The notes beneath the pieces were generated by a model that saw nothing but the letters and a program-made list of their open reading frames with translations, was not told the DNA's origin and did no database searches. Positions 6,988-51,383 of a DNA stretch of 53,075 nt are shown in pieces. Origin of the DNA: Clostridia bacterium. GTDB lineage: Bacteria; Bacillota; Clostridia; Oscillospirales; Acutalibacteraceae. A program made the translations under genes and the position numbers. The stretch is from the NCBI GenBank assembly GCA_024692685.1, contig JAILMJ010000083.1, positions 1 to 53,075 on the forward strand. Reading direction: 5' to 3'. Every line of letters begins with the position of its first letter. The first letter of the stretch is position 1.

Positions 6988-6988
6988 T

Positions 6989-12731: not shown

Positions 12732-12858
12732 TGGTTTGTTCTCCTTTCTTTTGTTGAGACCATCATAAAGGGTGAACTTAAAATCAAATTAAAAGAAAAC
12801 AAACTTTTCGCTTTTATGGTTTCCGGCACCGTCTTTTAATTATTTTAAAACAAAAAGA

Positions 12859-12890
12859 GACCCCGCCGAATAATAAATAACAGCGGAATC
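12859..12890. terminator. Intrinsic terminator
   Basis: GACCCCGC (12859-12866) pairs with GCGGAATC (12883-12890), including G-T pairs. On the minus strand the stem is followed by TCTTTTTG, ending the operon that stops at 12919. The plus strand also has a T run. Confidence 0.6.
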
Positions 12891-12918
12891 TTTTTTGAAA
12901 ATTTTTCACTTTTTTAAA

Positions 12919-15166: not shown

Positions 15167-15217
15167 TACAAAATATAGAATTAAGAAAATTACAATCGTA
15201 AAACAGAGGTGTATATA

Positions 15218-20157: not shown

Positions 20158-20218
20158 ATTATTTCCTCTTTCTTTAAAGAAGGCAAGGCGGTTTAGCCAC
20201 CTTGCCCTTATTCACTGA

Positions 20219-20986
20219 TTATTTACTTGCCGCTGCAACTATGGCTGCGAACTTGTCTGCTTTGAGTGACGCGCCGCCGATAAGACCGCCGTCAACATCA
20301 TACTGGGCAAGAAGTTCGTCGGCGTTTGCGTCGTTCATTGAGCCGCCGTACTGGATAACGAATCCGTCAGCAGCTTTCCTGCTGTAAAGACGGGCAACAA
20401 GATCTCTGATTATCTTGCATACTTCGTTTGCCTGCTCGGGAGTTGCGGTTTCGCCCGTGCCGATAGCCCAGACAGGCTCGTAGGCAATAATGATATTGTC
20501 AAGTTCATTTTCGGCAACGCCCGCAAGAGCAATCTCAGTCTGAGCGCAGACAACCTGCTCCGTTATTCCCATCTTCCTCTCGGAGAGAACTTCACCGACA
20601 CAAAGGATAACCTTCAGGCCTGCATCGAGAGCCGCTCTGACACGGTTGCGAACGGTAACATCGGTTTCGCCGAAATACTGTCTTCTCTCAGAATGACCTA
20701 TGATAACATAGGGGACACCTGCTGCTTTGAGCATCTGAGCGGAAACTTCGCCTGTGAATGCGCCTTTTTCTGCCCAGTGACAGTTCTCTGCGCCGATTTT
20801 GATGTTGGAGCCGCACGCGGCTTCCATAGCGGCATAGAGATCAATATAGGGAACGCAGAGAACTACATCGCAGTCTGCGTTTGCTACAAGAGGTTTCATT
20901 TCTTCAATGAGAGCCTTTGCCTGATCGGGGGTGTTATTCATTTTCCAGTTGCCCGCTATTACGGGTCTGCGAAGTGATTTATCCAT
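20219..20986 (-). CDS. tpiA: Triosephosphate isomerase
   Basis: This 255-residue TIM-barrel enzyme interconverts dihydroxyacetone phosphate and glyceraldehyde 3-phosphate. It has the substrate Lys in IAGNWKMN, the electrophile His in VIIGHSERRQYFGE and the catalytic Glu in IIAYEPVWAIGTG, then the phosphate-binding YGGS and GGLIGGASL loops. It lies 15 bases after pgk and uses a good AGGAG site. Through dihydroxyacetone phosphate and GAP it connects glycolysis with the GAP-consuming transaldolase of the sulfoquinovose operon in this window. Confidence 0.98.
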   Translation of the reverse strand: MDKSLRRPVIAGNWKMNNTPDQAKALIEEMKPLVANADCDVVLCVPYIDLYAAMEAACGSNIKIGAENCHWAEKGAFTGEVSAQMLKAAGVPYVIIGHSERRQYFGETDVTVRNRVRAALDAGLKVILCVGEVLSERKMGITEQVVCAQTEIALAGVAENELDNIIIAYEPVWAIGTGETATPEQANEVCKIIRDLVARLYSRKAADGFVIQYGGSMNDANADELLAQYDVDGGLIGGASLKADKFAAIVAAASK

Positions 20987-21001
20987 TATTATTTCTCCTT
21001 C

Positions 21002-22213
21002 TTATTTATCGTCAACAGCTTCAATACCGGGAAGAACCTTACCCTCAAGGAATTCAAGGGAAGCGCCGCCGCCGGTTGAAATATGAGTCATCTTATCACC
21101 GAAGCCGAGGGTGTTGACAGCCGCAGCGGAATCGCCTCCGCCGATGATGGTAACAGCATCTGTCTCGGCAAGTGCCTTAGCTATGGCTATAGTGCCTTTA
21201 GCAAGAACGGGATTCTCAAACACGCCCATAGGACCGTTCCAGACAACTGTCTTGGCCTCTCTGACCGCCTGAGTGTAAAGCTCGCAGGATTTGGGACCGA
21301 TATCAAGACCTTCCATATTCCCGGGAATCTTATCGGCATCAAAAAGTTCAACCTCTATGGGAGCGTCAATGGGATCGGGGAAATCGGGAGCCGCGATAAC
21401 ATCAACGGGAAGGAGAATCTTTTTGCCGCACTCTTCAGCCTTCTTCATCATATCTCTGCAATAATCTATCTTGCTCTCATCAAGGAGAGAACGGCCGACC
21501 TCATAACCCTTTGCCGCAAGGAAGGTATAAGCCATACCTCCGCCGATAATCAGGGTGTCCGCCTTGTTGAGGAGATTATCAATAACGTTGAGTTTATCCG
21601 AAACCTTTGCTCCGCCGAGAACGGTAACAAAAGGTCTCTCGGGATTTTCAACAGCATCGCCGAGATATTTGAGCTCTTTGCCCATAAGATATCCGACAGC
21701 CGCTTCTTTGACATAATCGGTAATGCCGACGGTTGAGCAGTGCGCTCTGTGAGCGGCACCGAAAGCGTCATTTACATAAATGTCGCACAGACTTGCGAGA
21801 TCCTTTGAAAATGCCTCGCCGTTCTTTGTCTCTTCGGGACGGAAACGGGTATTCTCAAGAAGAACAACATCGCCGTCTTTCATTGCTGCTACAGCGGCTT
21901 TTGCATTCTCACCGACAACATTGTCGTCAGCGGCAAAAACTACATTTTTACCGAGCTTTTCACTGAGTCTCTTCGCAACGGGAGCGAGTGAGAATTTTGC
22001 TTCGGGGCCGTTCTTGGGCTTGCCGAGATGCGAGCAAAGAATTACTTTTGCGCCATCATCAATAAGCTTTTTGATTGTGGGAAGAGCGCCGTTGATTCTG
22101 TTTTCGTCAGTGATAACGCCGTCTTTGAGGGGCACATTGAAATCACAACGTACAAGCACTTTTTTGCCCTTGGCGCTGATGTCGTCGACTGTTTTCTTGT
22201 TGTAAAAGTTCAT
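21002..22213 (-). CDS. pgk: Phosphoglycerate kinase
   Basis: This 403-residue enzyme makes ATP from 1,3-bisphosphoglycerate. Features are [16 protein letters not shown], the substrate-binding [29 protein letters not shown], the hinge [14 protein letters not shown], the nucleotide-binding WNGPMGVFE and the C-terminal GGGDSAAAV. The length is typical. It heads the glycolytic operon. No gap gene is adjacent, which is less usual, so the GAPDH gene must lie elsewhere. Confidence 0.98.
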
Positions 22214-22263
22214 ACTGGCATTTTCCTTTCGGGTGGTTTATTATCTTTATTTTTATTTGAATA

Positions 22264-22292
22264 ATTATATTATATGGAAAGTCTTTTTGCAA
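22264..22292 (-). promoter_or_regulatory. Promoter of pgk-tpiA-gpmI
   Basis: On the minus strand TTGCAA (22287-22292), a 17-base spacer and a perfect TATAAT (22264-22269) stand about 50 bases before the pgk start. Confidence 0.75.
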
Positions 22293-22365
22293 GATATTTT
22301 TATTCGGCGAAATAACCGAAGATAGAAAACAATACGTAATTTTTTTGTATTACCCATACCGATAA

Positions 22366-22396
22366 GAAAAAGGGCATATCCGCACGGGATATGCCC
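22366..22396 (-). terminator. Intrinsic terminator after PFOR gene
   Basis: On the minus strand GGGCATATCC pairs perfectly with GGATATGCCC (22387-22396 and 22372-22381) and is followed by five Ts. It lies about 20 bases after the nifJ stop codon. Confidence 0.88.
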
Positions 22397-22414
22397 TGAA
22401 ACACCGGGTTGATA

Positions 22415-25400
22415 TTATTCGGCTGAGGGAGCATAGAGATCCCTGAGTCTGAGAAGGTGTGCATATCTTTCGTTTGCAGTCTTCTCTGCCTTGGTGAACA
22501 AGGTCTCCGCACGCTCGGGGAAGGAGCGGGTAAGCTGTGAATAGCGAGCCTCATTCATAATGAAATCTCTGTAGCTTGTGCTTGCCGGTTTGCTGTCAAT
22601 TGTGAAGGGATTCTTGCCCTCTGCCTTGAGAGCGGGGTTGTAACGGAACATATTCCAATATCCGCAGTCAACCGCCTTCTTCATCTCGGACTGGCAATTT
22701 GTCATGCCGCCCTTGATGGAGTGCATCTCGCAGGGTGCGTAAGCGATAACTATTGACGGACCGTGATATGCCTCTGCCTCCGTAAGAGCTTTAATGGTCT
22801 GATTGTTGTCAGCGCCCATTGCTATCTGAGCAACATAAACATAACCGTAACTCATTGCTATCTCCGCAAGGCTCTTCTTGGCTACCGACTTACCTGCCGC
22901 TGCAAACTGTGCAACCTGGCCGATATTGGATGCCTTGGAAGCCTGTCCGCCGGTATTGGAGTAAACTTCGGTATCAAATACCATAATGTTTACATCGTCG
23001 CCGGAAGCGAGTACGTGATCAACGCCGCCGAAACCGATATCGTAAGCCCAGCCGTCACCGCCGAAGATCCATACCGATTTCTTGGCAAGATACTCTTTGC
23101 CGGCGAGAATCTCTTTGCAAAGGTCGCATTCGGCACCGTCTATTGCTGCAACGAGAGCCTTTGTGGCCGCTGCGTTTGCCGCTCCGTCATCGACTGTGTC
23201 GAGATAAGCTGCCGCTGCCGCCTTTGTTGCTTCGGGCGTATTCTCGCCTTCTGCAAGACACTTAATCTTCTCAATGAGCCTGTTACGTATCGCGTTCTGA
23301 CCGAGATACATTCCGTAACCGTGCTCCGCGTTATCTTCAAAGAGGGAGTTTGCCCATGCGGGACCGTGACCTTCCTTGTTAACGGTGTAAGGTGAGGTTG
23401 CTGCGGGACCGCCCCAGATTGAGGAACAGCCGGTTGCGTTTGAAATGTACATTCTGTCTCCGAAGAGCTGGGTTATAAGGCGTGCATAAGATGTTTCCGC
23501 ACAGCCTGCGCAGGAACCGGAGAACTCAAGAAGAGGAGTCTTGAACTGGCTGCCGATAACGGTATTGTCGGCAACATCGTCCTTGACGGAAACATTGGCA
23601 ACCATGTAATCAAATACGGGCTGCATATCATCCTGGGACTCTCTGGGAACCATGGTAAGTGATTGGGTGGGACAAACGCCTATACATACTCCGCAGCCCA
23701 TACAGTCAAGCGGAGAAACGGCAAGTGAATACTTATAAACGCCCTTGCCTTTGCCGGCCTTCTTGTCAACCATAATTGCATTTGCGGGAGCACCTGCCGC
23801 CTCTGCTTCGTTAAGAACATAAGGTCTGATTGTTGCATGGGGGCAGACATAAGCGCACTTGTTACACTGAGCACAGGTGGTTGCATTCCAGGCGGGAACG
23901 GAAACCGCAACGCCTCTCTTCTCATAAGCAGCGGCGCCCTGCTCAAATGTGCCGTCCTCATGATCCTTAAAAGCGGAAACGGGAAGTGAATCGCCGTCCA
24001 TAAGTCCGACGGGCTTCATGATGCTGTCAACCTGCTTAACAAGTTTTGCAGCGCCCTTTGATGCAGCGGCATCACCGCTGTCAACGGCATTTGCCCACTC
24101 GGCGGGAACATTGATTTTAACATACGCTGTGGCACCGGCATCAATGGCATCCTCGTTCATCTTGACGATTTCGATGCCCTTCTTCATGAACTTCTGTGCC
24201 TTTTCCTTCATATAGCCGATTGCATCCTCTTCGGGAAGAACTTTTGCGAGTGAGAAGAATGCGGACTGAAGGATTGTGTTTGTACGTTTGCCAAGACCGA
24301 TTTTTGCGGCAAGGTCGATGGCGTTAACCGTGTAAAGCTGAATATCATTATTGGCAATATATCTCTTTGCTTCTGCATTGAGCTTTTCGCCTAACTCTTT
24401 TTCATCCCACTGGCAGTTGATAAGGAATACACCGCCGGGCTTTACGTCATTGACCATTTTGTAGCCTTTTTCAACATAGGAGGGGTTATGGCAGGCAACG
24501 AAGTTTGCCTTGTTGATGTAATAGGGACTCTTGATGGGCTTGTCACCGAAACGAAGGTGGGAAATGGTGATACCGCCGGTCTTCTTGGAGTCATACTGGA
24601 AATATGCCTGAACATACTTATCGGTATGGTCGCCGATAATTTTGATGGAGTCCTTGTTTGCGCCGACAGTACCGTCACCGCCGAGACCCCAGAATTTGCA
24701 CTCGATGGTTCCCTCGGCTGCGGTGTTGGGAGCTGCCTTCTCGGCAAGCGAAAGATAAGTTACATCGTCATTGATACCGATGGTGAAATGATCCTTCGGC
24801 TCTGCCTTGTCAAGTTCTTCATAAACAGCAAATACGCTGGCAGGAGGAGTATCCTTGGAACCGAGACCGTAACGGCCGCCGGTAACCTTTATGTCGCTTC
24901 TGCCTGTTGCGGCAAGAGCGGCAACAACATCAAGATAAAGGGGCTCGCCGAGAGCGCCGGGTTCCTTTGTTCTGTCAAGAACAGCGATTTTCTTGCATGA
25001 TGCGGGAATGGCTGCGGCAAGTTTTTCCGCCGAGAACGGTCTGTAAAGACGGACCTTGACAAGACCGACCTTTTCGCCCTTTGCGGTGAGATAATCAATA
25101 ACTTCCTCAGCTACGTCGCAGATTGAGCCCATGGCTACAATGACTTTTTCGGCGTCGGGTGCGCCGTAGTAGTTGAAGAGCTGATAGTTTGTGCCGAGTT
25201 TCTTGTTGACCTTATCCATATACTCTTCAACAACAGCAGGAAGAGCGTCATAATAAGAGTTGCAGGCCTCTCTGTGCTGGAAGAAAATATCGCCGTTTTC
25301 GTGAGAACCGCGCATAACAGGTCTTTCGGGATTGAGAGCGCGCTTGCGGAATGCTTCAACGGCATCCATATCGCACATTTCCTTAAGGTCATCGTAATCC

Positions 25401-25957
25401 CATACTTCTATCTTCTGGATTTCGTGAGAAGTGCGGAAGCCGTCAAAGAAGTTTATGAAAGGAACTCTGCCTTTGATAGCGGCAAGATGCGCAACGGCAC
25501 CGAGGTCCATAACTTCCTGGGGATTGGTTTCCGCAAGCATGGCAAAGCCGGTCTGACGGCAGGCATATACGTCGGAGTGGTCTCCGAAAATGTTAAGGGC
25601 GTGCGACGCGACGCAACGGGCCGAAACGTGGAAAACAGCGGGGAGAAGCTCACCGGCTATTTTGTACATATTCGGAATCATAAGGAGAAGGCCCTGGGAA
25701 GCAGTGTAGGTTGTGGTGAGAGCACCGGCTGCAAGTGAGCCGTGAACAGTGCCCGCAGCACCGGCTTCCGACTGCATCTCGGCGACCTTAACGGTAGTGC
25801 CGAAAATGTTTTTCAGACCCTGTGCCGACCATTGGTCGACGTAATCGGCCATGGGGCTTGACGGAGTTATGGGATAAATTCCGGCTACCTCGGTAAACGC
25901 ATAACTGACGTGCGCAGCAGCGTTATTACCGTCCATGGTTTTCTTTTTTCTTGCCAT
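22415..25957 (-). CDS. nifJ: Pyruvate:ferredoxin (flavodoxin) oxidoreductase
   Basis: This single-chain 1180-residue PFOR oxidises pyruvate to acetyl-CoA and CO2 while reducing ferredoxin. In order it has the pyrimidine-binding domain (YPITPSSPMADYVD near residue 30), the domain with TASQGLLLMIPNMYK, the EKR/gamma region with FWGLGGDGTVGANKDS, and a 2[4Fe-4S] ferredoxin insert (CAQCNKCAYVCPH and CMGCGVCIGVCP). The TPP domain follows with CAGCAET, GDGWAYDIGFGG and YSNTGGQ. It is full length. It is monocistronic, with its own promoter and terminator. Reduced ferredoxin would feed the [FeFe]-hydrogenase implied by hydEFG. Confidence 0.98.
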   Translation of the reverse strand: MARKKKTMDGNNAAAHVSYAFTEVAGIYPITPSSPMADYVDQWSAQGLKNIFGTTVKVAEMQSEAGAAGTVHGSLAAGALTTTYTASQGLLLMIPNMYKIAGELLPAVFHVSARCVASHALNIFGDHSDVYACRQTGFAMLAETNPQEVMDLGAVAHLAAIKGRVPFINFFDGFRTSHEIQKIEVWDYDDLKEMCDMDAVEAFRKRALNPERPVMRGSHENGDIFFQHREACNSYYDALPAVVEEYMDKVNKKLGTNYQLFNYYGAPDAEKVIVAMGSICDVAEEVIDYLTAKGEKVGLVKVRLYRPFSAEKLAAAIPASCKKIAVLDRTKEPGALGEPLYLDVVAALAATGRSDIKVTGGRYGLGSKDTPPASVFAVYEELDKAEPKDHFTIGINDDVTYLSLAEKAAPNTAAEGTIECKFWGLGGDGTVGANKDSIKIIGDHTDKYVQAYFQYDSKKTGGITISHLRFGDKPIKSPYYINKANFVACHNPSYVEKGYKMVNDVKPGGVFLINCQWDEKELGEKLNAEAKRYIANNDIQLYTVNAIDLAAKIGLGKRTNTILQSAFFSLAKVLPEEDAIGYMKEKAQKFMKKGIEIVKMNEDAIDAGATAYVKINVPAEWANAVDSGDAAASKGAAKLVKQVDSIMKPVGLMDGDSLPVSAFKDHEDGTFEQGAAAYEKRGVAVSVPAWNATTCAQCNKCAYVCPHATIRPYVLNEAEAAGAPANAIMVDKKAGKGKGVYKYSLAVSPLDCMGCGVCIGVCPTQSLTMVPRESQDDMQPVFDYMVANVSVKDDVADNTVIGSQFKTPLLEFSGSCAGCAETSYARLITQLFGDRMYISNATGCSSIWGGPAATSPYTVNKEGHGPAWANSLFEDNAEHGYGMYLGQNAIRNRLIEKIKCLAEGENTPEATKAAAAAYLDTVDDGAANAAATKALVAAIDGAECDLCKEILAGKEYLAKKSVWIFGGDGWAYDIGFGGVDHVLASGDDVNIMVFDTEVYSNTGGQASKASNIGQVAQFAAAGKSVAKKSLAEIAMSYGYVYVAQIAMGADNNQTIKALTEAEAYHGPSIVIAYAPCEMHSIKGGMTNCQSEMKKAVDCGYWNMFRYNPALKAEGKNPFTIDSKPASTSYRDFIMNEARYSQLTRSFPERAETLFTKAEKTANERYAHLLRLRDLYAPSAE

Positions 25958-37654: not shown

Positions 37655-37831
37655 ATACTCCACTCCTTTTAGGGGTATAATTTATTCGTAAAAATTATAT
37701 ATTAAAGTTATCGAAAAATAAATTGACATATATTACAAAATTATGAATGATTTTTTATCCATTTTTACTTTGGTTGTAAAAACAGTAATGATTGCTTTTT
37801 TTCGGTATTTTTCAGCAAATTGACATTTCAG

Positions 37832-37860
37832 TGGACATCGGCGAAAATCTGTGGTATTCT
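37832..37860 (+). promoter_or_regulatory. Promoter of the GH16 gene
   Basis: TGGACA (37832-37837), a 17-base spacer and TATTCT (37855-37860) stand 18 bases before the ATG, so the 5' leader would be only about a dozen bases and would begin near the ribosome site. Confidence 0.5.
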
Positions 37861-37878
37861 TTGCGCGAGGTGATTCTG

Positions 37879-38793
37879 ATGGAAAAACTGTTTGACCTTC
37901 TCAAACTCGCATACCGCCAAAGGGAATCAATTTACAGAGTGGGCAGACTTATTCGCAGTCTTCAAGGTTCATTTTCGGTCAGAAAACTGGTTTCGGTGAT
38001 TGTCGCCTTTTTTGAAATGTTCGCTTGTGTCATATCAGACAGCCCGGTAACCCCGCTCGGCGGGGAACTTGATTTAAGCGGTTACTCCCTCGTATTTGAG
38101 GATGAATTCAACTCGGATGCGCTTGATATGCAGGCGTGGAGTCACAGAGGCCTCGGTCCGAGACGCTGCGGCTTTAACGGCGCTTCGCAGGTCAGGGTTG
38201 AGGACGGTAAACTCGTCATCACGGGTGAATACCTCGAAAACGGAGAATACGGTCCTGGCTGGTATGTCGGAATGATTAAACTCAACAAGCAGTATAAACA
38301 CGGGTATTTTGAAATCAGATGTATCTGCAACAAGGGTGCCGATTTCTGGAGCGCATTCTGGATTCAGGCTGAACACCCCTATGATCACAGCATTTCGCAG
38401 GGAGGTGTCGGCGGAGCGGAGCTTGATATATTTGAGTCTGTATCCCGATATGAAGACAACAGGATTTACAAGGACGCAGTCACATCAACCGTTCACTGTA
38501 ACGGAGGCGACGACGATATCGAACACATTGATTCATGTATGGTCGGTCAATTCAGAGGCAAAAACATTCATGAAGAATACAACACCTACGGTCTCAAATG
38601 GACCGAAGACGAATACATATTCTATATCAACGGTGTGGAAAGCGGAAGGACAAGCTTTTCAAAGGGTGTTTCCGACGTGCCCGAAGATGTGATTGTTTCA
38701 CTCGAAATCCCCGATGAAGGGATAAGGTATGAAAAGGATTACAAAACGGAATTCATTGTTGATTATGTAAAAATCTGGCAGACAGACACTTGA
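37879..38793 (+). CDS. GH16-family beta-glucanase (laminarinase/lichenase type)
   Basis: The 304-residue protein contains a GH16 catalytic domain (about residues 70-304). The active-site motif is AELDIFES (ExDxxE), preceded by GYFEIRCIC and the aromatic WSAFWIQAEH stretch, and followed by TYGLKWTEDEYIFYINGV. It should cleave beta-1,3 or mixed beta-1,3/1,4 glucans. The first 60 residues are odd: a basic amphipathic stretch (KLAYRQRESIYRVGRLIRSL) and then a hydrophobic segment KLVSVIVAFFEMFACVIS near 37-54, rather than a normal signal peptide. It may be anchored by this segment. The ATG at 37879 has GAGG 8 bases upstream. Confidence 0.88.
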   Translation: MEKLFDLLKLAYRQRESIYRVGRLIRSLQGSFSVRKLVSVIVAFFEMFACVISDSPVTPLGGELDLSGYSLVFEDEFNSDALDMQAWSHRGLGPRRCGFNGASQVRVEDGKLVITGEYLENGEYGPGWYVGMIKLNKQYKHGYFEIRCICNKGADFWSAFWIQAEHPYDHSISQGGVGGAELDIFESVSRYEDNRIYKDAVTSTVHCNGGDDDIEHIDSCMVGQFRGKNIHEEYNTYGLKWTEDEYIFYINGVESGRTSFSKGVSDVPEDVIVSLEIPDEGIRYEKDYKTEFIVDYVKIWQTDT

Positions 38794-41891: not shown

Positions 41892-41905
41892 GTATAAAAC
41901 TATAA

Positions 41906-41931
41906 CCCCATTCGTTCGAGGACGAATGGGG
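41906..41931. terminator. Bidirectional terminator
   Basis: A perfect 10-base stem CCCCATTCGT/ACGAATGGGG with a 6-base loop lies between two converging transcripts: the metallophosphoesterase gene and the sulfoquinovose operon. TTTATTT follows on the plus strand and TTATAGTTTT on the minus strand. Confidence 0.85.
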
Positions 41932-41962
41932 TTTATTTGTGACCTGTTTGTAATTCTGTGTA

Positions 41963-43402
41963 TTATTCCTCTGTTTCTCTTATCCGCTCAAGATCTTCGT
42001 GCATCTCAACAAGTTTTTTCTTGGAGAGGTTGTAACCGAAGAAGAGCAGAACCGCCATAAGCGAGAGCATAACGGCAGGCACAAGAGTGGAAATGTCATA
42101 GAGCTTTGAAAGAACGTCCTGACTCAGGGCAATTCCCTGCTTTGAAAGCTCACCGTTATAACGAATATAGGCAAGCAAAGCGTTCAGGCCGACTCCGGCA
42201 AGGGTCTGACCGAGTTTTCTTGTGAATGAGAAAAATGCGTAAGCCATGCCTTCTTCGCGTTTCCCCGTACGCACTTCGTGGTAGTCAATGGCATCCATAA
42301 CAAGCGCCCAGACTTCGAGCACAAGAAAGGTCTGACCGAGACCGGAGAAGAAGGTGAACACAAGGAAAACAACGGGGCTTTGGGCAAGAGCCGTCCCCCT
42401 GAGCGCAAAGAGAATAAAATTGATTACGGCCGCAAAAGCCATACCTGCGGCGCAGAGTTCCTTCTTACCGAACTTGCGGATGAGTTTATTCATAACCGGG
42501 ATGAATATTGCCATCGGACCGTAGGTGCAGATTGTTACGAAAGCATACATTCCCGCCTTACCGAAATAGTCAGTGAAAAGGTAGGTGTAGGTGGACTGAT
42601 AATAAAACTGGAACGCTATGAGAAGCATCGAAGCGAGGGAAAGCATAACAAAGGGTCTGTTTGAGATAAGAGCCTTAACCGTAGCAAAAGCATTGTAGTT
42701 CTTGGTGCCGTCCTTCTTCTGGGGTGCAATCCTTTCCTTTGTGAGTTTGTAATGAATTGCATATACAAGGACGGAAAGAACAGAAAGCGCAAGAACGCAC
42801 CAGAAGAGTTTATTCTCATCAAGAGCCTGGATATTGGTACCGTTGGCATATTTGCCCGTAACGGTGTAAACTATCATAGGCAGAACAATTGTGCCGGGAA
42901 GACCGCCGAGACCGGCTCCGATTGAGCGCCACATTGAAAGTGATGAACGCTCAAGCTCATCATCGGTGATAACCGATGCAAGCGAACCGTAAGGAATGTT
43001 CACGGCTGTATACATCATACCATATAATATATAGGTAATATAAGCATAAACGAGATATTTCGTTTCATCCAGGCCGGGAATCTTGAAAAACATCAGGGCA
43101 GACGCAATGGCAAGGGGAATCGAAAACCTGAGTATCCAGGGACGGAACTGCCCTCCCCGATTCGGCTTGCGGGACTGAATGAACGCACCCCAGAGAGGAT
43201 CGTTTACCGCGTCCCAGATTCTGGCGATAAGAATGAGCACAACTATCTTTGCAGGGCTGATACCAAGCGCGTCCGTGTAGAATTTATTCTGAAACGCTCC
43301 GATAAGCGAAAATGTGAGAAGACCGGCGGTATCGCCGAGGGCATAACCGATTTTGTCTTTCAGTTTTATTCCGTGAGTCTCCGTAAGATTAGTCAAATCC
43401 AT
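41963..43402 (-). CDS. GPH-family sugar:cation symporter (probable sulfoquinovose/SQ-glycoside importer)
   Basis: This 479-residue, 12-helix transporter belongs to the glycoside-pentoside-hexuronide (MelB-like) family: KDKIGYALGDTAGLLTFSLIG near the N terminus, ARIWDAVNDPLWG and the central GKYANGTN region. E. coli YihO/YihP, the proposed sulfoquinovose carriers, are of the same family. As the last gene of the sulfo-TAL operon it most likely imports sulfoquinovose or its glycerol glycoside. The start is the second of two adjacent ATGs, favoured slightly by spacing to AAAGGA; 43405 is possible. Confidence 0.88.
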   Translation of the reverse strand: MDLTNLTETHGIKLKDKIGYALGDTAGLLTFSLIGAFQNKFYTDALGISPAKIVVLILIARIWDAVNDPLWGAFIQSRKPNRGGQFRPWILRFSIPLAIASALMFFKIPGLDETKYLVYAYITYILYGMMYTAVNIPYGSLASVITDDELERSSLSMWRSIGAGLGGLPGTIVLPMIVYTVTGKYANGTNIQALDENKLFWCVLALSVLSVLVYAIHYKLTKERIAPQKKDGTKNYNAFATVKALISNRPFVMLSLASMLLIAFQFYYQSTYTYLFTDYFGKAGMYAFVTICTYGPMAIFIPVMNKLIRKFGKKELCAAGMAFAAVINFILFALRGTALAQSPVVFLVFTFFSGLGQTFLVLEVWALVMDAIDYHEVRTGKREEGMAYAFFSFTRKLGQTLAGVGLNALLAYIRYNGELSKQGIALSQDVLSKLYDISTLVPAVMLSLMAVLLFFGYNLSKKKLVEMHEDLERIRETEE

Positions 43403-43419
43403 CATTCCTTTATCAGTTT

Positions 43420-44151
43420 TTATTTAATAAGCAGAGATACTCCGCTGATGAGCATGAGAACATACGTAAGCTGCAAGAATACCTTGCGGCTCATTTTTTT
43501 GCTGATAAGACTGCCGATTACCAGAGCGGCAGCAAGTGTCACAACCGATATTGCGGTAATTCTGATTGTTTCCGGAGTGAAATAACCCTCATATATATCT
43601 GTTGCAAAAAGGATACCGTTCAGCAAAATCCAAACTGCGCTCAGAGTGCCTCTGAATTCGTCCTTATCCCGTATTTTACCGCTTGCATACGTAACAAGCA
43701 GCGGTCCCCCGCACACAAACATACCGTGAACCACTCCCGCAAGCACGAGAAGAATTACAGACACGGGAGACGGCAGAACCTTATCATCTTTGTGCATATA
43801 GAATTTAACGGCATTCATCACAGCAAATACAATCACAATGACTCCGAGTGTCTTATAGAGCAGGGACGGATTGCCCGTGAAGAAACGTTTGAGGTATATT
43901 CCCGCCGCCATACCGACAAGCATAATTCCCGTCATTTTGAGAAGCTCTTTTTTGTTGATATGCCTGAAACAGGTGATGACGACATAGACCGAGGCAAGTA
44001 ACCCGAGTATATTGAGCGCGGGCTTTGCAACGTCATAACCGACAAGCATAACGGAAAAAGGCATCGCAAGAACAGTACCCGCAAAGCCGGTTATGCACTG
44101 GATAATATTGGTAAGAAAAACCGTGAGTAAAAACAGGATTTTTTCAAGCAT
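43420..44151 (-). CDS. TauE/SafE-family exporter (probable organosulfonate exporter)
   Basis: This 243-residue membrane protein has about eight helices in two homologous halves, typical of the TauE/SafE (sulfite/organosulfonate exporter) family: TGFAGTVLAMPFSVMLVGYD in the first half and AGVVHGMFVCGGPLLVTYASG in the second. TauE/SafE proteins accompany most sulfoglycolysis and sulfonate pathways as exporters of the C3-sulfonate. Here the expected cargo is DHPS, or sulfolactate. The ATG at 44151 overlaps the stop codon of the isomerase gene (TGATG), so translation is coupled. Confidence 0.87.
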   Translation of the reverse strand: MLEKILFLLTVFLTNIIQCITGFAGTVLAMPFSVMLVGYDVAKPALNILGLLASVYVVITCFRHINKKELLKMTGIMLVGMAAGIYLKRFFTGNPSLLYKTLGVIVIVFAVMNAVKFYMHKDDKVLPSPVSVILLVLAGVVHGMFVCGGPLLVTYASGKIRDKDEFRGTLSAVWILLNGILFATDIYEGYFTPETIRITAISVVTLAAALVIGSLISKKMSRKVFLQLTYVLMLISGVSLLIK

Positions 44152-45485
44152 CAATACCGGCAAACCTCAATTCCGATAAAATTACCGAGGGCTTCGATTT
44201 CACTTGTAATGTCGCCCATAGCAACGGCAAAATGGGGTTCCCAGCCGTCTCTGACAGCCATATCTATTATTTCGGCGGAACTGCTTTCTGTTTCAACAAC
44301 TATAGAAGTGCCGCTGAACTGTTTCGGCTTGTCAACCGCCCTGCCCTTAGTAAGGAAGAAACGGAAAGTGCCGTCAGGATTTCTGCCGATTCTGAATATC
44401 GTAACCTTTTCCTCAGCCTTGCAGCCGAATTCAAGCGTGGGACCTATCTTTCTGTTACAGTGAAGCCCCGCGCACGCGCCTGTGTCCTCCCTTGCAAGAG
44501 AGCAGGGAGCCATACCGCAGTGCCAAAAGGTCAGGGTGTTCTCTTTTTCATCAAGGGAAACGGGATCGCCGAAGAAAGCTGCCTTGCCCGTAAGCTGATT
44601 TGCGGCGTACATAGTCAGAGCGCCGTAAGCGTCCGACTCACAGGCGGCAGGCACGTTGAGGTCATTGAGGATACCGAGAACCGAACATACCGGAGTGCCG
44701 AAGGAGGTGAAGAAATCGGGCCAGCAGCGGCTTGCAAGAGCACCGATACCCTCGGCTTTGACATATTCATAATATGCCTTATATAACCTCGCAAAATCCC
44801 TGACATTCTTTTCATTTACGGAATCAAGACCGCAGATTCTCTTCTTTGCGTCATCGAGATAAGGCACTATATCCTCGTCTGTAAAGGTTTTTGCCTTGTC
44901 AATCAGTTCTCTCGCCTCAATGGAGTTTACTGTTACTCCGAAAGTTTTCAGTGCTTCAAGATCAAGCGCTCTGCCGAAGCCGAAACCCTGGGGCGTATGG
45001 CCGACCTGGAGAAGTTTAAGTGATTTGAAGGATTTGACAAGTTTTGCAGCCGCATAGACGGATTTGATTTTTGACTTCACTTTATCCTCGTCGGGTGAGC
45101 CGAATACATATTCAAAGGTCTTGCCGAAGCCTCTCATTGAATTTGCCGCCGAAAAAGCGCCGGTAAGCGAATTAAGTCTGAGACGGGTACCGTCAATCAC
45201 GGGCTCGCGCAGAGTCCACAGAAGAACGGGGCAGTCGATTTTTTTGAGTATCTCGCACATATACGCCGCGTTGGCGAATGTGAGATTCTGGACTACCGCA
45301 AAGTCCGGTTTTATTGTTTCAAGGTAGGAGTCGAGCGCATCAATCGTGAGAAGCATATCGGAGGGAGCTTTGAAACCCGCATCCAGACTTCTGAGATAAT
45401 CAACGCTCTTATCAAAGCAGCTCTTTGCGCTTTCAAGATGAAATGTACCGACTCCTATCGGTATGTATGCACATTCAAAAGACAT
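44151..45485 (-). CDS. Fucose/arabinose-isomerase-family protein (probable sulfoquinovose isomerase)
   Basis: This 444-residue protein has the L-fucose/L-arabinose isomerase fold (COG2407 type): an N-terminal Rossmann-like half with DFAVVQNLTFANAAYMCEIL and LLWTLREP, and a C-terminal half with CESDAYGALTMYAANQLTG and FWHCGMAPCSLA, which supply acidic and His metal ligands. In the transaldolase route a member of this family, not the AGE-type YihS, converts sulfoquinovose to 6-deoxy-6-sulfofructose. Function is assigned by context. The ATG at 45485 was chosen over a TTG two codons earlier. It begins 6 bases after the reductase stop. Confidence 0.83.
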   Translation of the reverse strand: MSFECAYIPIGVGTFHLESAKSCFDKSVDYLRSLDAGFKAPSDMLLTIDALDSYLETIKPDFAVVQNLTFANAAYMCEILKKIDCPVLLWTLREPVIDGTRLRLNSLTGAFSAANSMRGFGKTFEYVFGSPDEDKVKSKIKSVYAAAKLVKSFKSLKLLQVGHTPQGFGFGRALDLEALKTFGVTVNSIEARELIDKAKTFTDEDIVPYLDDAKKRICGLDSVNEKNVRDFARLYKAYYEYVKAEGIGALASRCWPDFFTSFGTPVCSVLGILNDLNVPAACESDAYGALTMYAANQLTGKAAFFGDPVSLDEKENTLTFWHCGMAPCSLAREDTGACAGLHCNRKIGPTLEFGCKAEEKVTIFRIGRNPDGTFRFFLTKGRAVDKPKQFSGTSIVVETESSSAEIIDMAVRDGWEPHFAVAMGDITSEIEALGNFIGIEVCRY

Positions 45486-45491
45486 AACCAA

Positions 45492-46352
45492 TCAAACCTC
45501 TCCGTTTACTATTCTGTAGGTAGCTCTGAAGTCGGTTTTGCCCATTCCCTTTTCCATGCCTTTGTCAAAAACCGCTTTGACATTATCAAGGCCGGGCATA
45601 TTGCAGCCGGACGCCTTACACAGACGCTGGGCTATTCCGAGGTCTTTATGTTCATTCTCAAGGGAGAACGCCGTTGTCCAGTTTTCAGAGGCAAGATTCT
45701 GCCACTGGCTGTCAAGATAGAAATTCTGGGCTCCGCCGTATGAAACCGCCTTGACAAAATCCTCAATGGCTATGCCCTGCTTGCGGGCAAGGCCCAGAGT
45801 TTCGTTTACCGCATTCTGAATTTCGCCGACAAGAGCGTTATGGCAGATTTTCATTGTTATACCCATACCGTTTTCGCCCATACGGATAACATTGCAGCCC
45901 ATATATTTGAGAATGGGCTCAATAACGGGATAGAGTTCTTCGTCACAACCTACGAGAATACCGAGCGTGCCGTTGATTGCCGCGGGCTTTGACTTTACAA
46001 CGGGGGCATCTGCAAACCGGCCTCCCTTTGCCTTGACATCGGCGGCAACTTCAACTGAAACGGAAGGATCTATTGTGCTCATATCAACGCAAATCTTAGT
46101 GCTGTCGATAAAGGGAAGCATCTCATCATAAACAGAGCGAACGTGCTCTGACTTCGGAACCATCGTAAAGACGATATCAGCATTTTTGATGACTTCCGCG
46201 CTGCTTGAACAGGGAACACCGCCGACAGCGGCAAGTTTATCAACTTGGGCTTTGTTGATATCAAAAACAAAAACTTTGCCGTCGTGTTTTTTTATTATGT
46301 TTTCACTCATTGACTCGCCCATTATGCCGAGCCCTATAAAACCTATTTTCAT
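45492..46352 (-). CDS. YihU-like beta-hydroxyacid dehydrogenase (probable sulfolactaldehyde reductase)
   Basis: This 286-residue enzyme of the 3-hydroxyisobutyrate dehydrogenase family has NAD-binding GFIGLGIMGESM (residues 4-15), the DMSTIDPSVS loop, the substrate loop DAPVVKSKPAAINGT, the catalytic Lys168 in GITMKICHN and EHKDLGIA near the C-terminal helices. Compared with E. coli YihU as I recall it, the HKDLGIA segment and catalytic Lys are kept, and the loop Arg is a Lys here. It should reduce 3-sulfolactaldehyde to 2,3-dihydroxypropane-1-sulfonate with NADH, serving as a fermentative electron sink. Specificity is inferred from the operon. Confidence 0.85.
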   Translation of the reverse strand: MKIGFIGLGIMGESMSENIIKKHDGKVFVFDINKAQVDKLAAVGGVPCSSSAEVIKNADIVFTMVPKSEHVRSVYDEMLPFIDSTKICVDMSTIDPSVSVEVAADVKAKGGRFADAPVVKSKPAAINGTLGILVGCDEELYPVIEPILKYMGCNVIRMGENGMGITMKICHNALVGEIQNAVNETLGLARKQGIAIEDFVKAVSYGGAQNFYLDSQWQNLASENWTTAFSLENEHKDLGIAQRLCKASGCNMPGLDNVKAVFDKGMEKGMGKTDFRATYRIVNGEV

Positions 46353-46371
46353 AATTTCAGTTTCCTTTCAC

Positions 46372-47058
46372 TCAGTCTGTAATCGTCTTATCCCAGGCAC
46401 TGCAGAAACGCTCAAGACCGTAATCGGTAAACGGATGATAGAAACTGTCTTTGAACACCTGAAGACCGGCGGTAACGATATCCGCTCCCGCAACGGCACA
46501 GTCGACAATCTGCTTGCCGTTTCTGACTGCGGCACAGATTATCTCGGTTTTTCCGTAGAAGCCGTAATTTCTGTAAATCTCCACAATGTCACTTATATAC
46601 TGAACACAGTCTTCACCGCTGTTTTCCTTCCAGCCGATGAACGGGGATACAAACAGGGACTTGTTCTTGGCGGCTATGAGAGCCTGGGAAGGAGAGAAAA
46701 CAAGAGTGAGATTTGTTCTGATATTTTCTTTTTCAAGTCTGCGTGCCGCGGCAATGCCCGCCTCGGTGCAGGGAATCTTGATAACGAAGTTGCTGCTCAT
46801 GGCGGAAATCTTTCTCGCCATTTCAACCATTTCGTCGGCCGTGTCAAGATGAGGGTTAATCTCAACACTTATCGGGAAAACGTCTGAGCCCTCTATTCCT
46901 TTTTCTTTTACGAAACCGGCAAGTTCCGAAATGACGGTATAAAATGGCTTGCCGCTGTTCATTATGTGATTGGGGTTGGTGGTGATGCCGTCAATACCGA
47001 AGGTATCATAGGCCTCTCTGATTTCATCGATTTTTGCGCTGTCAAGAAAGTATTTCAT
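46372..47058 (-). CDS. TalC/FSA-type transaldolase (probable sulfofructose transaldolase)
   Basis: This 228-residue class I aldolase-fold protein of the small transaldolase/fructose-6-phosphate aldolase family has MKYFLDSAKIDEIREA, the GITTNPN motif (residues 24-30), the Schiff-base Lys94 in FVIKIPC, TLVFSPSQALIA and SPFIGW. In this operon it matches the sulfofructose transaldolase, which cleaves 6-deoxy-6-sulfofructose and passes the C3 unit to glyceraldehyde 3-phosphate. The products are sulfolactaldehyde and fructose 6-phosphate. GGAGG lies 7 bases before the ATG. Alone it could be called a generic transaldolase; the neighbours decide. Confidence 0.87.
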   Translation of the reverse strand: MKYFLDSAKIDEIREAYDTFGIDGITTNPNHIMNSGKPFYTVISELAGFVKEKGIEGSDVFPISVEINPHLDTADEMVEMARKISAMSSNFVIKIPCTEAGIAAARRLEKENIRTNLTLVFSPSQALIAAKNKSLFVSPFIGWKENSGEDCVQYISDIVEIYRNYGFYGKTEIICAAVRNGKQIVDCAVAGADIVTAGLQVFKDSFYHPFTDYGLERFCSAWDKTITD

Positions 47059-47072
47059 AGTAAATCCTCCAT

Positions 47073-47771
47073 TTACATTTTTTCAAGTATTTCGGGATGG
47101 GCGGTCAGGTCATAGCGCTTGTAATTATCCTGCGCGTCGAAAAACCAGACTCTCGCATCCGGTCTTTTTTCGGATATTATCAGGGAATATTTACCGCCGG
47201 AGCAGCAAATTGCCGTGTCGTTTTCACAAGCAACGGTTGAAAGCCGGGTTTTCTTTGCGAAGTCGTCAAAACCGTGCCAGAACGCTCCTTCATAATGAGG
47301 AACATTGTTATACGGCAGCAGCCCAAGAGCATCGATAAATTCAAAATCATCGTCCGGCCCGCAGTCATCAAAGCCCTGACGGAACCAGCACATACTGCCG
47401 GATGAACTGCCGAAGAAGATTTTGCCGTTTTCATATCCTTCACGCAGATAATGCGCCGCGTTTGTCCTGTTCCAGACATCCATACAGAATTTGAGATTGC
47501 CGCCCGGAACGTTAATAATATCCGCCCTGCGTATCATATCAGCGATTATTTCTTCCGTAAGGCAGGGATTTGTCAGACACAGCACTTCGCATTTACAGCC
47601 CATCTTGCTGTATATCGGAATTTCCCCTCTTGAGAAATCATAGCCGGTTGTGGGAATAAGCAGATAATTCGGCGACTGTTTGCCTGTTATGGCAATAATC
47701 CTGCGGGCAAGTGACCAGCCGTACTCACCGTCAAAACCGCCGCCTATACCGATAACCGTTCCTTTACTCAT
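47073..47771 (-). CDS. Peptidase S51/glutamine-amidotransferase-like protein
   Basis: This 232-residue class I glutamine-amidotransferase-like protein is of the peptidase E (S51) type, related to dipeptidase E and cyanophycinase. It has GIGGGFDGEYG near the N terminus, NVPGGN at about 87-92, and a nucleophile elbow GSSSG with Ser123 as likely nucleophile (peptidase E has GxSAG). PHYEGAFWHGF may hold the His. AAGGAGG lies 7 bases before the ATG. It sits inside the sulfoquinovose operon, between the GH31 and transaldolase genes, but no step of the known pathway needs a peptidase. Its role is unknown. Confidence 0.82.
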   Translation of the reverse strand: MSKGTVIGIGGGFDGEYGWSLARRIIAITGKQSPNYLLIPTTGYDFSRGEIPIYSKMGCKCEVLCLTNPCLTEEIIADMIRRADIINVPGGNLKFCMDVWNRTNAAHYLREGYENGKIFFGSSSGSMCWFRQGFDDCGPDDDFEFIDALGLLPYNNVPHYEGAFWHGFDDFAKKTRLSTVACENDTAICCSGGKYSLIISEKRPDARVWFFDAQDNYKRYDLTAHPEILEKM

Positions 47772-47783
47772 CAAATAACCTCC

Positions 47784-49787
47784 TTAACCGACAGAACGCG
47801 CATTTTCAAGCACACTGATAACCTCCGGGTCTGCGTTCTTCCTGTAGAAAACGGGAGGACAACCGAGAGGAGCGTCAACCGTAACATGACCGCCCTTGTA
47901 TTCCTTGCCGGAGAAGAAGTGAATCCATTCATCATCCGGCAGATAAACTTCTCTCCTGCTTTCGCCGGGTCTTATAACAGGAGCAACAAGCACGTCCCTG
48001 CCAAGGAGATATTCATAACACTCTGTATACGCGAATTTTTCGTCATAATAGAAGAACAGAGGCCTGACAACACCTACGCCTTTTTCAGCGTTATACTTCA
48101 CGGCTGCCTTGATATATGGCTTGAGCGCAACGTGGATTTTGCTCATCTTTGACTGATGCTCAATAACGGTCTCGCTCGCGTCGAACTGGGCATTCAGGTC
48201 GGGATTAAGGCCTTCGTGGCTTCTCATAACGGGAGAAAATGCATTCATCTCACACCAGCGCATATAAAGTTCTTCACTTCTCTTCAGTATAGAGAAAGTT
48301 GTGTATCCGCCGATATCCGAGTGACTCAGACCGAAGCCGCAGCAAGTGAGCGAAAGCATTGCCGGAATAACAGAGGGCATACCGTAGTCAAACGAAAAGT
48401 CGACATGGTTGTCGCCGTTCCACATCATGGTAGAATATTTCGGAGTTTCAGTATAACCTGAGCGGGTGAAGAACATAATTTCACCGAGTTTGCCTGTTTC
48501 TTCAAGCGCTTCCCTGTTGAGCTTTGCCCATCTCTGAGGCCAGGTGTTATGAACAATCTGGGCATCCTCGCCGCTGTAAAGTACGCAATCCGTCGGAAGA
48601 TATTCGCCGAAATCCGCCATCCAGCCCGAAAGCCCGAACTCAATCATATTCTTTTTTATGATGCCCTTGAGCCACTCATAGGCCTCCGGATTCGTGAAAT
48701 CCACCATAGCGGCGGGGAAAGTGGTTATGGTCACATAATAGTCCTCTCCGTCCTTATTCTTGACGCAATAGCCCTTTTCACTCGCCTCTTTGTAGAGCGG
48801 CTTTTCTATCGCAAGGAACGGATTGCAGTAACCGAGAACCTTTATGTTCTTTTCGTTGAGCTTCTTTATTGCCTCATCAAGACCGGGGTAGAGTTCTTTA
48901 TCCCACTCCCAATTCCAGAAGAGTTGTTTTCCGGCGGCGGTAACTCTCCTGCCCTGCCAGTCCTGAATCCATACGCCGTTGACATCCATACCGTGATCAA
49001 GGCAGTTGTCAACCTTCTTCATCATTATATCCGTTCCGCCCTGTATGCCGAGGATAGCGCCGTCATATACCCAGTCAGGGAGCTCCGGCTGCCTTCCGAG
49101 AAGGTCGGTAAGGTCGGAAACAACTTCCTCAAATGTATCACCCATACCGATAACGAAATCGGAAACGCTGTTGAATTTCAGGCGGATATAGCTGTTTCCG
49201 CTGAAATCAAAGAAAGCGCGTGCGGTTGTGAATGAATGGAAGTAATACTTCCTGCTGCTGAGAAATGTCGGCTGGGCATAGTAGGTTTCATAGTTTGTGA
49301 ATTTTCCTTTTTTGGTTGAATCCCTGCGACCAATGGCTATCTTGGCAAGTTTCTTCGCAATGCAGCGTGCATTCATATGCTCCGCCACCCAGACATTCAC
49401 TTTATGACCTTTCAGGTCAAACTCGCTGAAAGTTTCGCCCGTGCCGTAGAAGTGTTCGCTGCTGTCGGTCGCAAGAGCAAAAGACAGCCGGTTATAATGA
49501 TGAAGGCCGAAAAACTTTACATAAAGTCTTTTGCCGTCAATAACCACATCAAGAGCGCCGTCATCAAATTTAACATGAAGAGTGTTGCCGTCAATTTCAA
49601 GTTCTTTGACTCTCAGCGGCTTATCGCTGTATATCTGATCCTTAATTTTGAAGCTGCCGTGATCCATGGCAAAATCGGCCTCGCCGTAACCGACACTTAC
49701 GGGCTCGCTGCCCGGGGCAAGGGAAAATACCGTCACTCCGCCCGAGACTATATCAACAACATTTCCCCTGGTCTTAAATTCAGTCAT
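47784..49787 (-). CDS. yihQ: GH31-family sulfoquinovosidase (YihQ-like)
   Basis: This 667-residue cytoplasmic GH31 enzyme aligns without gaps to key positions of E. coli YihQ as I recall it (offset 13). Present are the nucleophile Asp392 in GWMADFGEYLPTD, the acid/base Asp459 in MMWNGDNHVDFS, Gln249 (GIQGGTD), Gln275 (IQDW), Trp291 (FWNW) and Tyr495 (SDIGGYTT). The counterpart of Arg301, a sulfonate-binding residue, is Gln288 (GKQLFW). It should release sulfoquinovose from sulfoquinovosyl glycerol. The ATG at 49787 has GGAGG 6 bases upstream. It is the first gene of the operon and has no signal peptide, so glycosides must be imported. Confidence 0.87.
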   Translation of the reverse strand: MTEFKTRGNVVDIVSGGVTVFSLAPGSEPVSVGYGEADFAMDHGSFKIKDQIYSDKPLRVKELEIDGNTLHVKFDDGALDVVIDGKRLYVKFFGLHHYNRLSFALATDSSEHFYGTGETFSEFDLKGHKVNVWVAEHMNARCIAKKLAKIAIGRRDSTKKGKFTNYETYYAQPTFLSSRKYYFHSFTTARAFFDFSGNSYIRLKFNSVSDFVIGMGDTFEEVVSDLTDLLGRQPELPDWVYDGAILGIQGGTDIMMKKVDNCLDHGMDVNGVWIQDWQGRRVTAAGKQLFWNWEWDKELYPGLDEAIKKLNEKNIKVLGYCNPFLAIEKPLYKEASEKGYCVKNKDGEDYYVTITTFPAAMVDFTNPEAYEWLKGIIKKNMIEFGLSGWMADFGEYLPTDCVLYSGEDAQIVHNTWPQRWAKLNREALEETGKLGEIMFFTRSGYTETPKYSTMMWNGDNHVDFSFDYGMPSVIPAMLSLTCCGFGLSHSDIGGYTTFSILKRSEELYMRWCEMNAFSPVMRSHEGLNPDLNAQFDASETVIEHQSKMSKIHVALKPYIKAAVKYNAEKGVGVVRPLFFYYDEKFAYTECYEYLLGRDVLVAPVIRPGESRREVYLPDDEWIHFFSGKEYKGGHVTVDAPLGCPPVFYRKNADPEVISVLENARSVG

Positions 49788-49886
49788 ATTAAACCTCCGA
49801 ACGATTTTAAGAAATACCGGCCGCAAACTGAAAAAGCCTTCCAAAGACATAAGAACTGCAGCCTACTGTTTTACATTATTATTTTT

Positions 49887-49915
49887 ATAATACTACATAA
49901 TAATTATTTTTTCAA
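49887..49915 (-). promoter_or_regulatory. Promoter of the sulfoquinovose operon
   Basis: On the minus strand TTGAAA (49910-49915), a 17-base spacer and TATTAT (49887-49892) lie about 100 bases before the sulfoquinovosidase ATG. No regulator gene is in the operon, and I saw no convincing operator palindrome in the leader. Confidence 0.65.
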
Positions 49916-50026: not shown

Positions 50027-50045
50027 ATGAGAAGGGGTGACTTCA

Positions 50046-51383
50046 TTGACAACGGATAAAAACATCAGTCTTCAAAGGATTCTGTTTCTTTCACTCACAG
50101 GCGCGCTCCTGCTGGGCGCACTGTGGAGATTCCGCGGCAGCCACGGGTGGGGCGGAGAAAGCGGAGTATTTAACGCCGGCTTTCTTTTTATAATGTTTCT
50201 CGTTGCGGTCTGCCGGGGAGCGCACAAGGCAACTCCGCTTAAAACCGCTTTTGCGGGCGCGGCTTTTATTCTCACCACTCCTGCCTGGGGCACTCTGAAC
50301 AAGCAGATATGCGGAGTTATCTCAAATAAGGACGATCCCCTGATTCACGGCGTGCCGGTTTACTCTGCTGTGCTGATTATGCTGCTGCTCGGTTTCACAA
50401 TGTGCGGTATTTTTGCCCTGTTTACCGCAAACATATTCAGTGAAAAACAGTGGAAACTCCGAAACTACATAATAATAATCGGGCTGTTTTTTGCGGTGCA
50501 GTATTTATTCAAAGCAACCTTGGCTCATCCGCTGCTCAGGCTTATACAACCCGTAAGTGTGAACGCCTTTGACGGCGGCCTGGCCTCCGAAAATATCACT
50601 CAAAACGTATTCAGAGCGTATCTTGCTCACTTTGACAATGTCAGCTGGGCCAAGAAAATCCCCGGAGGACGCAATTATTTTGCGGAAATCGAACTTATTT
50701 CGAGAGCATGCGCGGTTGTATGCTGCCTTCTTGTGACAAGATTCGGCTTCAGGGATAAACAGACGGCAAAACTCGGGGCGATTATATGCGGCGCATTTGC
50801 CGCGGGCATAACCGTTGCCGACCTTTTCTTCCTGTTTTTCACCCCCGAAGGAAAAAACATCCAATCATCCTTTGTCAGTGCCTGGAGCTGCTGGGAATAC
50901 TTCACCGGCTTCATTGCGGGCGGCATCATAACCGCTGCGGTGCTGAAGCTCGGCAAAACCGGCACGGAACCCGAACATTCCCTCGGCTTTATACCGAGAA
51001 AGGTTCACAACATTTTGTCTTTTGCCATAGGGCTGAGTGTCCCCGTTGCATTTAACATTCTGAGACCCCTCATCCTTCGCCTTGACGGAGTAAAATATCA
51101 AATACCCGTGAGCATAGTCGCCTGCCTTGTGACGGCGGTAATTCTGATACTCACAGGTATTAAGCATAAATTTGCCTTTTCGCGGGTCAGAACCGTCAGG
51201 TATTCTCTCGCTGTTCTCGGAACGGTGTTTACGATTCAGACCGTTGTATATTTCTTCATTGCCGGCGAATACGCCGCCGCAAACGACGGCTTTACTCTTT
51301 CAAATCTGATGACGGCTGTCTCATGCGCTGCGGTCATACTGTTTACGCTGATATGCGCAATGAAAGAGAGAAAACCGGATTAA
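50046..51383 (+). CDS. Multi-pass membrane protein of unknown function
   Basis: I do not recognise this 445-residue protein. It has about ten to twelve hydrophobic segments. A striking conserved-looking motif lies at the end of the first helix, GALWRFRGSHGWGGESGVF, and charged loops lie at DNVSWAKKIPGGRNYFAEIE and FFTPEGKNIQSS. I chose the TTG at 50046, 8 bases after AAGGGG (50032-50037), over a GTG that overlaps that site. It is transcribed divergently from the sulfoquinovose operon. That does not prove a link, but a transport or envelope role is likely. Confidence 0.75.
   Translation: MTTDKNISLQRILFLSLTGALLLGALWRFRGSHGWGGESGVFNAGFLFIMFLVAVCRGAHKATPLKTAFAGAAFILTTPAWGTLNKQICGVISNKDDPLIHGVPVYSAVLIMLLLGFTMCGIFALFTANIFSEKQWKLRNYIIIIGLFFAVQYLFKATLAHPLLRLIQPVSVNAFDGGLASENITQNVFRAYLAHFDNVSWAKKIPGGRNYFAEIELISRACAVVCCLLVTRFGFRDKQTAKLGAIICGAFAAGITVADLFFLFFTPEGKNIQSSFVSAWSCWEYFTGFIAGGIITAAVLKLGKTGTEPEHSLGFIPRKVHNILSFAIGLSVPVAFNILRPLILRLDGVKYQIPVSIVACLVTAVILILTGIKHKFAFSRVRTVRYSLAVLGTVFTIQTVVYFFIAGEYAAANDGFTLSNLMTAVSCAAVILFTLICAMKERKPD

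Follow-up and report, generated by a model that had tools for sequence, protein, structure and literature searches.

We analysed a stretch of 53,075 nucleotides of Clostridia bacterium DNA (GenBank assembly GCA_024692685.1, contig JAILMJ010000083.1; hereafter the window) and conclude that seven minus-strand genes at positions 41963-49787 very probably form a reductive sulfoglycolytic transaldolase (sulfo-TAL or SFT) module, leading from sulfoquinovose (SQ) to 2,3-dihydroxypropane-1-sulfonate (DHPS). The pathway itself is already known; what is new is the type of GH31 enzyme and, less so, an operon form that lacks SftX and contains a peptidase-S51-like gene. By alignment and tree, the window GH31 belongs to a clade that is sister to the solved sulfoquinovosidases and has Gln for Arg301 and Thr for Glu369 (YihQ numbering throughout, unless stated). 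GH31 enzymes with Gln or Arg at position 301, and the operons that carry them, are called Gln-type and Arg-type below.

Operon layout and pathway enzymes

The seven open reading frames (ORFs) are all open in the ORF list of the window and are closely packed. In the order of transcription they encode a GH31 protein, an S51-like protein, a TalC/FSA transaldolase, a beta-hydroxyacid dehydrogenase, a fucose-isomerase-like protein, a TauE/SafE protein and a GPH symporter, and the gaps between them are 9, 14, 19, 0, -13 and 14 bases, one pair abutting and one overlapping. An earlier sequence-only reading had described a seven-gene operon running in one direction with short gaps. Direction, spacing (gaps of at most 19 bases) and gene number stand, but only six genes had been listed, the S51-like gene (PF03575) being left unnamed. 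Pfam and NCBIfam confirmed the gene families with the exception, at the Pfam level, of the isomerase, which scored 23.7 bits on the fucose-isomerase domain, under the cut-off of 29.3.

47784..49787, minus strand: GH31 sulfoquinovosidase homologue, Gln-type (alternative upstream ATG at 49850)
47073..47774, minus strand: peptidase-S51-like protein (PF03575, 89 bits; ATG at 47771, TTG at 47774)
46372..47058, minus strand: TalC/FSA transaldolase, SftT (BmSF-TAL 8bc3, 310 bits; tree 100/100; Lys89)
45492..46352, minus strand: SftR, probable 3-sulfolactaldehyde reductase (beta-hydroxyacid dehydrogenase family; VVKS[KR] motif)
44151..45491, minus strand: SftI, predicted sulfoquinovose isomerase (NF048012, 394 bits, cut-off 700; ATG at 45485)
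43420..44163, minus strand: TauE/SafE-family exporter in the SftE role, DHPS its probable cargo (PF01925, 70.8 bits; ATG at 44151, overlapping the SftI stop)
41963..43405, minus strand: GPH-family symporter, probable importer of SQ or SQ-glycerol (TIGR00792, 297 bits, cut-off 231)

The accessible parts of three papers set out an SFT scheme in which an isomerase, a transaldolase and a reductase lead to DHPS (PMC11968277, PMC8397734, PMC9594981), and the substrates, product and transport roles of the window operon would follow by analogy. The GPH symporter would import SQ-glycerol or SQ, the GH31 would release SQ by cleaving the alpha-glycoside, and SftI would convert SQ to sulfofructose. SftT would then, through a Lys Schiff base, pass a C3 unit onto glyceraldehyde 3-phosphate, yielding fructose 6-phosphate and sulfolactaldehyde, the latter would be reduced by SftR with NADH, and the resulting DHPS would leave through the TauE protein. 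DHPS as a product, and cross-feeding on it, are thus expectations drawn from the published pathway.

Compared with solved structures, the window transaldolase gave 8bc3, 8bc4 and 8bc2 as its top three matches (310, 307 and 300 bits), with the next family at 164; 8bc3 is named BmSF-TAL and the other two only transaldolase. A tree of 32 rows, for which 23 of the 98 SftT rows were taken, grouped the window protein with BmSF-TAL and 21 relatives (100/100), apart from nine ordinary transaldolases taken from genomes of the same family, with a long-branch warning among these outgroups. The catalytic Lys89 is kept in 98 of 98 SftT rows, some contigs being included twice in this count and in that of the SftR rows below. 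The window transaldolase lies inside the sulfofructose-transaldolase clade (SftT/SqvA), a placement that the sequence-only reading had set as a test. The isomerase and the reductase match those of Arg-type operons, and the sulfo-TAL interpretation given in the sequence-only reading is supported. In the same tree the Arg-type operons L214 and L157 are nested among Gln-type operons. A search of plasmid records with SftT returned, among the best 10 of 197 matches, only aldolases at 42% identity or less.

The transaldolase was also searched against genome contigs, and the best 80 of 138 relatives were used, a set that, being selected on SftT, favours the window's clade and in which many loci are incomplete at their ends. 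Since 71 of these 80 loci also hold both SftR and SftI genes, the arrangement is not due to chance.

The sole NCBIfam hit of the isomerase was NF048012 (SftI), at 394 bits, below the curated cut-off of 700. This score is not counted against the assignment, because all seven isomerase relatives scored on the model also remained below 700: six SftI-type proteins, half of them encoded in Arg-type operons, reached 372-415 bits (415 for the Arg-type control L214), and a protein of a second isomerase type gave 186. Identity of the window isomerase to SftI of operons with an Eubacterium rectale-like Arg-type GH31 is 62% (L214) and 55% (L157). The motif VVKS[KR] of the reductase is shared by all 87 SftR rows, which come from both operon types, and at this place the family member 3cky has VSGG; by these comparisons SftR is a probable sulfolactaldehyde reductase.

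Glutamine-type GH31 enzymes

Arg301 has served as the mark by which GH31 enzymes are recognised as sulfoquinovosidases, and in YihQ it is presumably a contact of the sulfonate. The sulfonate site as a whole we take to be Q/K262, Q/E288, R301, W304 and Y508. The window GH31 has the catalytic Asp pair, a PDB search with its AlphaFold model returned the sulfoquinovosidase fold, and Q262, Q288, W304 and Y508 are kept, with Gln in place of R301. Further type differences from the solved enzymes are M454 to Thr and N/S474 to His. The two replaced codons, assigned by alignment with coordinates from the reading frame, are:

48924..48926, minus strand: codon of window Gln288, aligned with YihQ Arg301
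48720..48722, minus strand: codon of window Thr356, aligned with YihQ Glu369 (ITTF replaces FGEF)

Gln occupies position 301 in the window and in all 70 GH31s aligned from the 80 loci (ORFs above 450 aa and 300 bits; the GH31 of the other loci is cut or missing). A set of 118 aligned rows comprised 86 with Gln301 together with W304 and Q288 (85 distinct, as the window occurs twice, as WIN and L140), 16 with Arg, among them the four solved proteins and L181 (GERWE), and 16 without the motif. Position 369 is Thr in 86 of 86 Gln rows, and Glu (14), Ala (1) or Ser (1) in the Arg rows; 25 more positions separate the types. Y508 is kept in 80 of the 86 Gln rows (five Phe, one gap). Because the codons vary synonymously (Gln301 is CAG in 76 and CAA in 9, and each of the four Thr codons occurs at 369), selection probably maintains both residues. 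In a careful tree of 52 rows, with the Gln clade thinned to 29 rows and L180 and L181 left out, these 29 came together as a single clade (97/90), and all four solved enzymes stood among the Arg rows. On a quick tree with 79 rows, two changes are required for the Gln label, which is still compatible with one origin.

The window GH31 scored 786 bits on the NCBIfam YihQ model NF007746 (cut-off 553). Passing this model proves little, because 8 of 10 scored GH31s without the motif, nine of the ten from one other family of the order, pass it too. The label YihQ-like used in the sequence-only reading concealed the Arg-to-Gln change.

For the genomic context, the GH31 was searched against 398 genomes of the family to which the window belongs, 394 of its order and 391 of its class at E 1e-100 or better, the window included; at most three candidates per genome were scored, so that second copies may escape. 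This yielded 26 Gln-type, 11 Arg-type and 17 motif-less genes, L181 being counted here among the last. Nearby SQ genes, defined as at least one of SftT, SftR, SftI, the second isomerase type or SftX within 9 kb (queries from the window and relatives, identity floors of 35-55%), accompanied 22 of the 26 Gln-type and 9 of the 11 Arg-type genes, and none of the 11 examined motif-less ones, several of whose contexts end at a contig edge (L190 at 4.3 kb). The two Arg-type genes without such neighbours are those of G746 and G764; G764 belongs to the window's genus, and its SftI and SftR are on a different contig. We read the two types as serving the same pathway. Since the Gln-type sits in the same operons, the window GH31 probably works as a sulfoquinovosidase, one that binds the sulfonate differently or favours a different SQ glycoside. 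A second, uncharacterised type of GH31 sulfoquinovosidase likely exists. We give about an even chance to the broader proposal that the Gln-types constitute this second kind, widespread in uncultured herbivore-gut Clostridia, with Gln/Thr for Arg301/Glu369, and that they hold the sulfonate without arginine or are adapted to some SQ glycoside that is not SQ-glycerol.

Several observations weigh against reading the operon as an SQ module with a working sulfoquinovosidase. The presumed sulfonate contact R301 is lost in the window GH31, and all four solved sulfoquinovosidases have Arg at 301, none Gln. Four of the 26 Gln-type genes (G162 contig 57, G776 and a tandem pair in G309) have no SQ gene nearby; in G162, however, a different contig (L053) encodes SftT, SftR and an isomerase. 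SftX (DUF4867) is not among the ORFs of the window operon. Finally, SftR scored 185.7 on the tartronate semialdehyde reductase model and 154.9 on that for sulfolactaldehyde reductase; the reductase of the Arg-type control gave 163.3 and 152.8, respectively, its top match being 3-hydroxyisobutyrate dehydrogenase (170.6).

The replacement of R301 in 71 of 71 aligned members, the 26 other type-separating positions and the weak proof afforded by NF007746 could mean that the GH31 is an alpha-glycosidase for another sugar which travels with the operon, SQ entering free. We consider this unlikely: the great majority of Gln-type genes (22/26) adjoin SQ genes, the remainder of the sulfonate site is retained, and the SftT tree mixes Arg-type with Gln-type operons, as if one GH31 type could stand in for the other. 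Far less probable is that the whole operon handles a carboxylated analogue, a hexuronide, with the isomerase yielding fructuronate, the transaldolase tartronate semialdehyde and fructose 6-phosphate, and the reductase glycerate. The top model of SftR and the reduced positive charge left by R301 to Gln would suit such a route, but transaldolase, isomerase and reductase resemble those of Arg-type operons, the reductase has VVKS[KR] and not the VSGG of 3cky, and a TauE-family exporter is present.

Should the Gln-type enzymes cleave SQ glycosides, a large clade escapes the Arg301 signature; should they not, SQ use is overestimated by yihQ surveys in which they are included. A literature search of titles and abstract starts, with most subscription papers outside its scope, found no description of a Gln-type GH31 sulfoquinovosidase. 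The accessible parts of a rumen study report very high yihQ richness, with one long branch, for which Mariniplasma YihQ is the reference, making up 64% and 47.5% of the rumen variants in two libraries, and few yihQ variants enriched by SQ (PMC13219744). This branch may correspond to the Gln-type or to the motif-less GH31s, of which most of those scored also pass NF007746. As far as those parts go, that study stressed isethionate, whereas the operon described here would put a DHPS-type route in herbivore-gut Clostridia.

Other GH31 arrangements were seen in the searches. L188-L203 (16 genomes from one other family of the order) and L181 carry YihQ-like GH31s without the sulfonate motif. L154 has two tandem Gln-type genes with F508 (6163-8172 and 12548-14557) around a gene for an extracellular solute-binding protein; they are intermediate at the type-separating residues and have no SQ genes nearby. 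L205:8518-14433 (Gln-type) and L153:5673-14145 (Arg-type) combine a GH31 with the second isomerase type, SftX, an iron alcohol dehydrogenase and TauE; these stretches lack SftT and are perhaps transketolase-type SQ clusters.

SftX, the S51-like gene and related operons

The sequence-only reading had called the operon complete, a word that passes over the missing SftX and the additional S51 gene. A genome search did not find SftX either, but its controls also gave no match, so that absence from the genome is unproven. In 48 of the 71 loci with SftR and SftI, SftX is present and there is space for it between these genes; in the other 23, without SftX, SftR and SftI are directly adjacent. SftX is a common accessory of sulfo-TAL operons, not a defining one; the accessible text of PMC11968277 argues, from other SQ pathways without SftX, that it may be dispensable. 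The operon also has no ROK gene, and in G015 and G610, of the window's genus, SftI and SftR lie on contigs apart from GH31-SftT. A pathway that is incomplete or decaying, having lost SftX and its regulator and with scattered genes in sister species, is nevertheless very improbable: the seven ORFs are open and closely spaced, and since SftX is likewise missing from 23 of the 71 related operons, the SftX-less operon appears to be a stable form.

The S51-like protein keeps the Ser of GSSSG and the His of PHY in an alignment with 3l4e, as do aligned relatives, and is a putative serine hydrolase. Its gene is present in 1 of the 80 related loci, L060 from horse faeces, which has exactly the seven-gene order of the window. 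Replacement of SftX by the S51 protein is not supported, since 22 of the 23 SftX-less operons also lack S51. The scanned neighbourhoods of S51 homologues were varied; an FGGY kinase is next to L058, and a KDPG aldolase and a PfkB kinase are encoded close to L056. In L060 the GPH gene is directly followed by an FGGY carbohydrate kinase gene (15183-16811), which the window operon does not have. The E. rectale cluster is said to hold a glycerol kinase.

According to record titles the best 80 loci are mostly from uncultured or metagenome-assembled Clostridia, and the source samples of many were rumen, goat, sheep, deer, buffalo, horse and rabbit ('Lapin'). Operons of this kind are common in uncultured, largely herbivore-gut Clostridia. 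In the window's genus, 4 of 7 searched genomes have SftI (at least 61% identity) and SftR (at least 69%).

A four-gene form, GH31-SftT-MFS and a gene of unknown function, occurs at L133:7993-13287, L116:6850-11946 and L122:515-5769; the fourth gene encodes 290-320 aa, and the two copies scanned had no Pfam match. The idea that a new isomerase serves the pathway was rejected for G015 (L133) and G610 (L116), where SftI and SftR are found elsewhere. Among 200 genomes of the family, 20 hold relatives of the fourth gene, the window's own genome included (contig 13), and the search of these 200 genomes gave no tie between it and SQ.

Flanking sequences and comparison with known systems

Two candidate sites flank the operon, each by consensus match only:

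41904..41933, no strand assigned: hairpin with a T run on both strands, between the operon and a convergent gene and likely a terminator shared by the two
49887..49915, minus strand: promoter-like site upstream of the operon

Such matches exceed expectation in the region (hairpin plus T, 23 found and 8.7 expected; promoter-like, 25 and 11.8). Divergent from the operon, 50037-51383 encodes a 448-aa protein, membrane-like by eye and without a Pfam or NCBIfam match, a 38% relative of which was found near the SftT locus of L053. Elsewhere in the window, an iPGM, TIM, PGK and PFOR run (18586-25957, minus strand) is consistent with a fermentative anaerobe, and the earlier description of the organism as hydrogen-producing fits this PFOR and the [FeFe]-hydrogenase domain matches in the genome. 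The ORF at 37792-38793 we take, by eye, to have the look of a GH16-type glucanase.

The window operon shares GH31, SftI, SftT, SftR, the exporter and the expected DHPS with the sulfo-TAL system of E. rectale (Agathobacter rectalis), as described in the accessible parts of PMC11968277 and PMC8397734. It differs in lacking SftX, in the inserted S51-like gene and in its GH31, which is 44% identical to SftG (6pnr) and Gln-type. With the Bacillus megaterium system (BmSF-TAL 8bc3, BmSQase 8r56) it shares the transaldolase clade, Lys89 and the sulfoquinovosidase fold, but R301 of BmSQase is Gln in the window, and a reductase stands where Bacillus, from what is accessible of PMC12890257, has sulfolactaldehyde oxidation. 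In an unrelated family a sulfonate-site residue is likewise changed in whole groups from SQ-like gene clusters; there, however, the contact is a backbone amide, so that the authors' models leave the site intact. YihQ, AtSQase, SftG and BmSQase all have the fold, the catalytic Asp pair, Q/K262, Q/E288, W304 and Y508 in common with the window GH31, which departs from them in R301 to Gln, the FGEF loop to ITTF, M454 to Thr and N/S474 to His.

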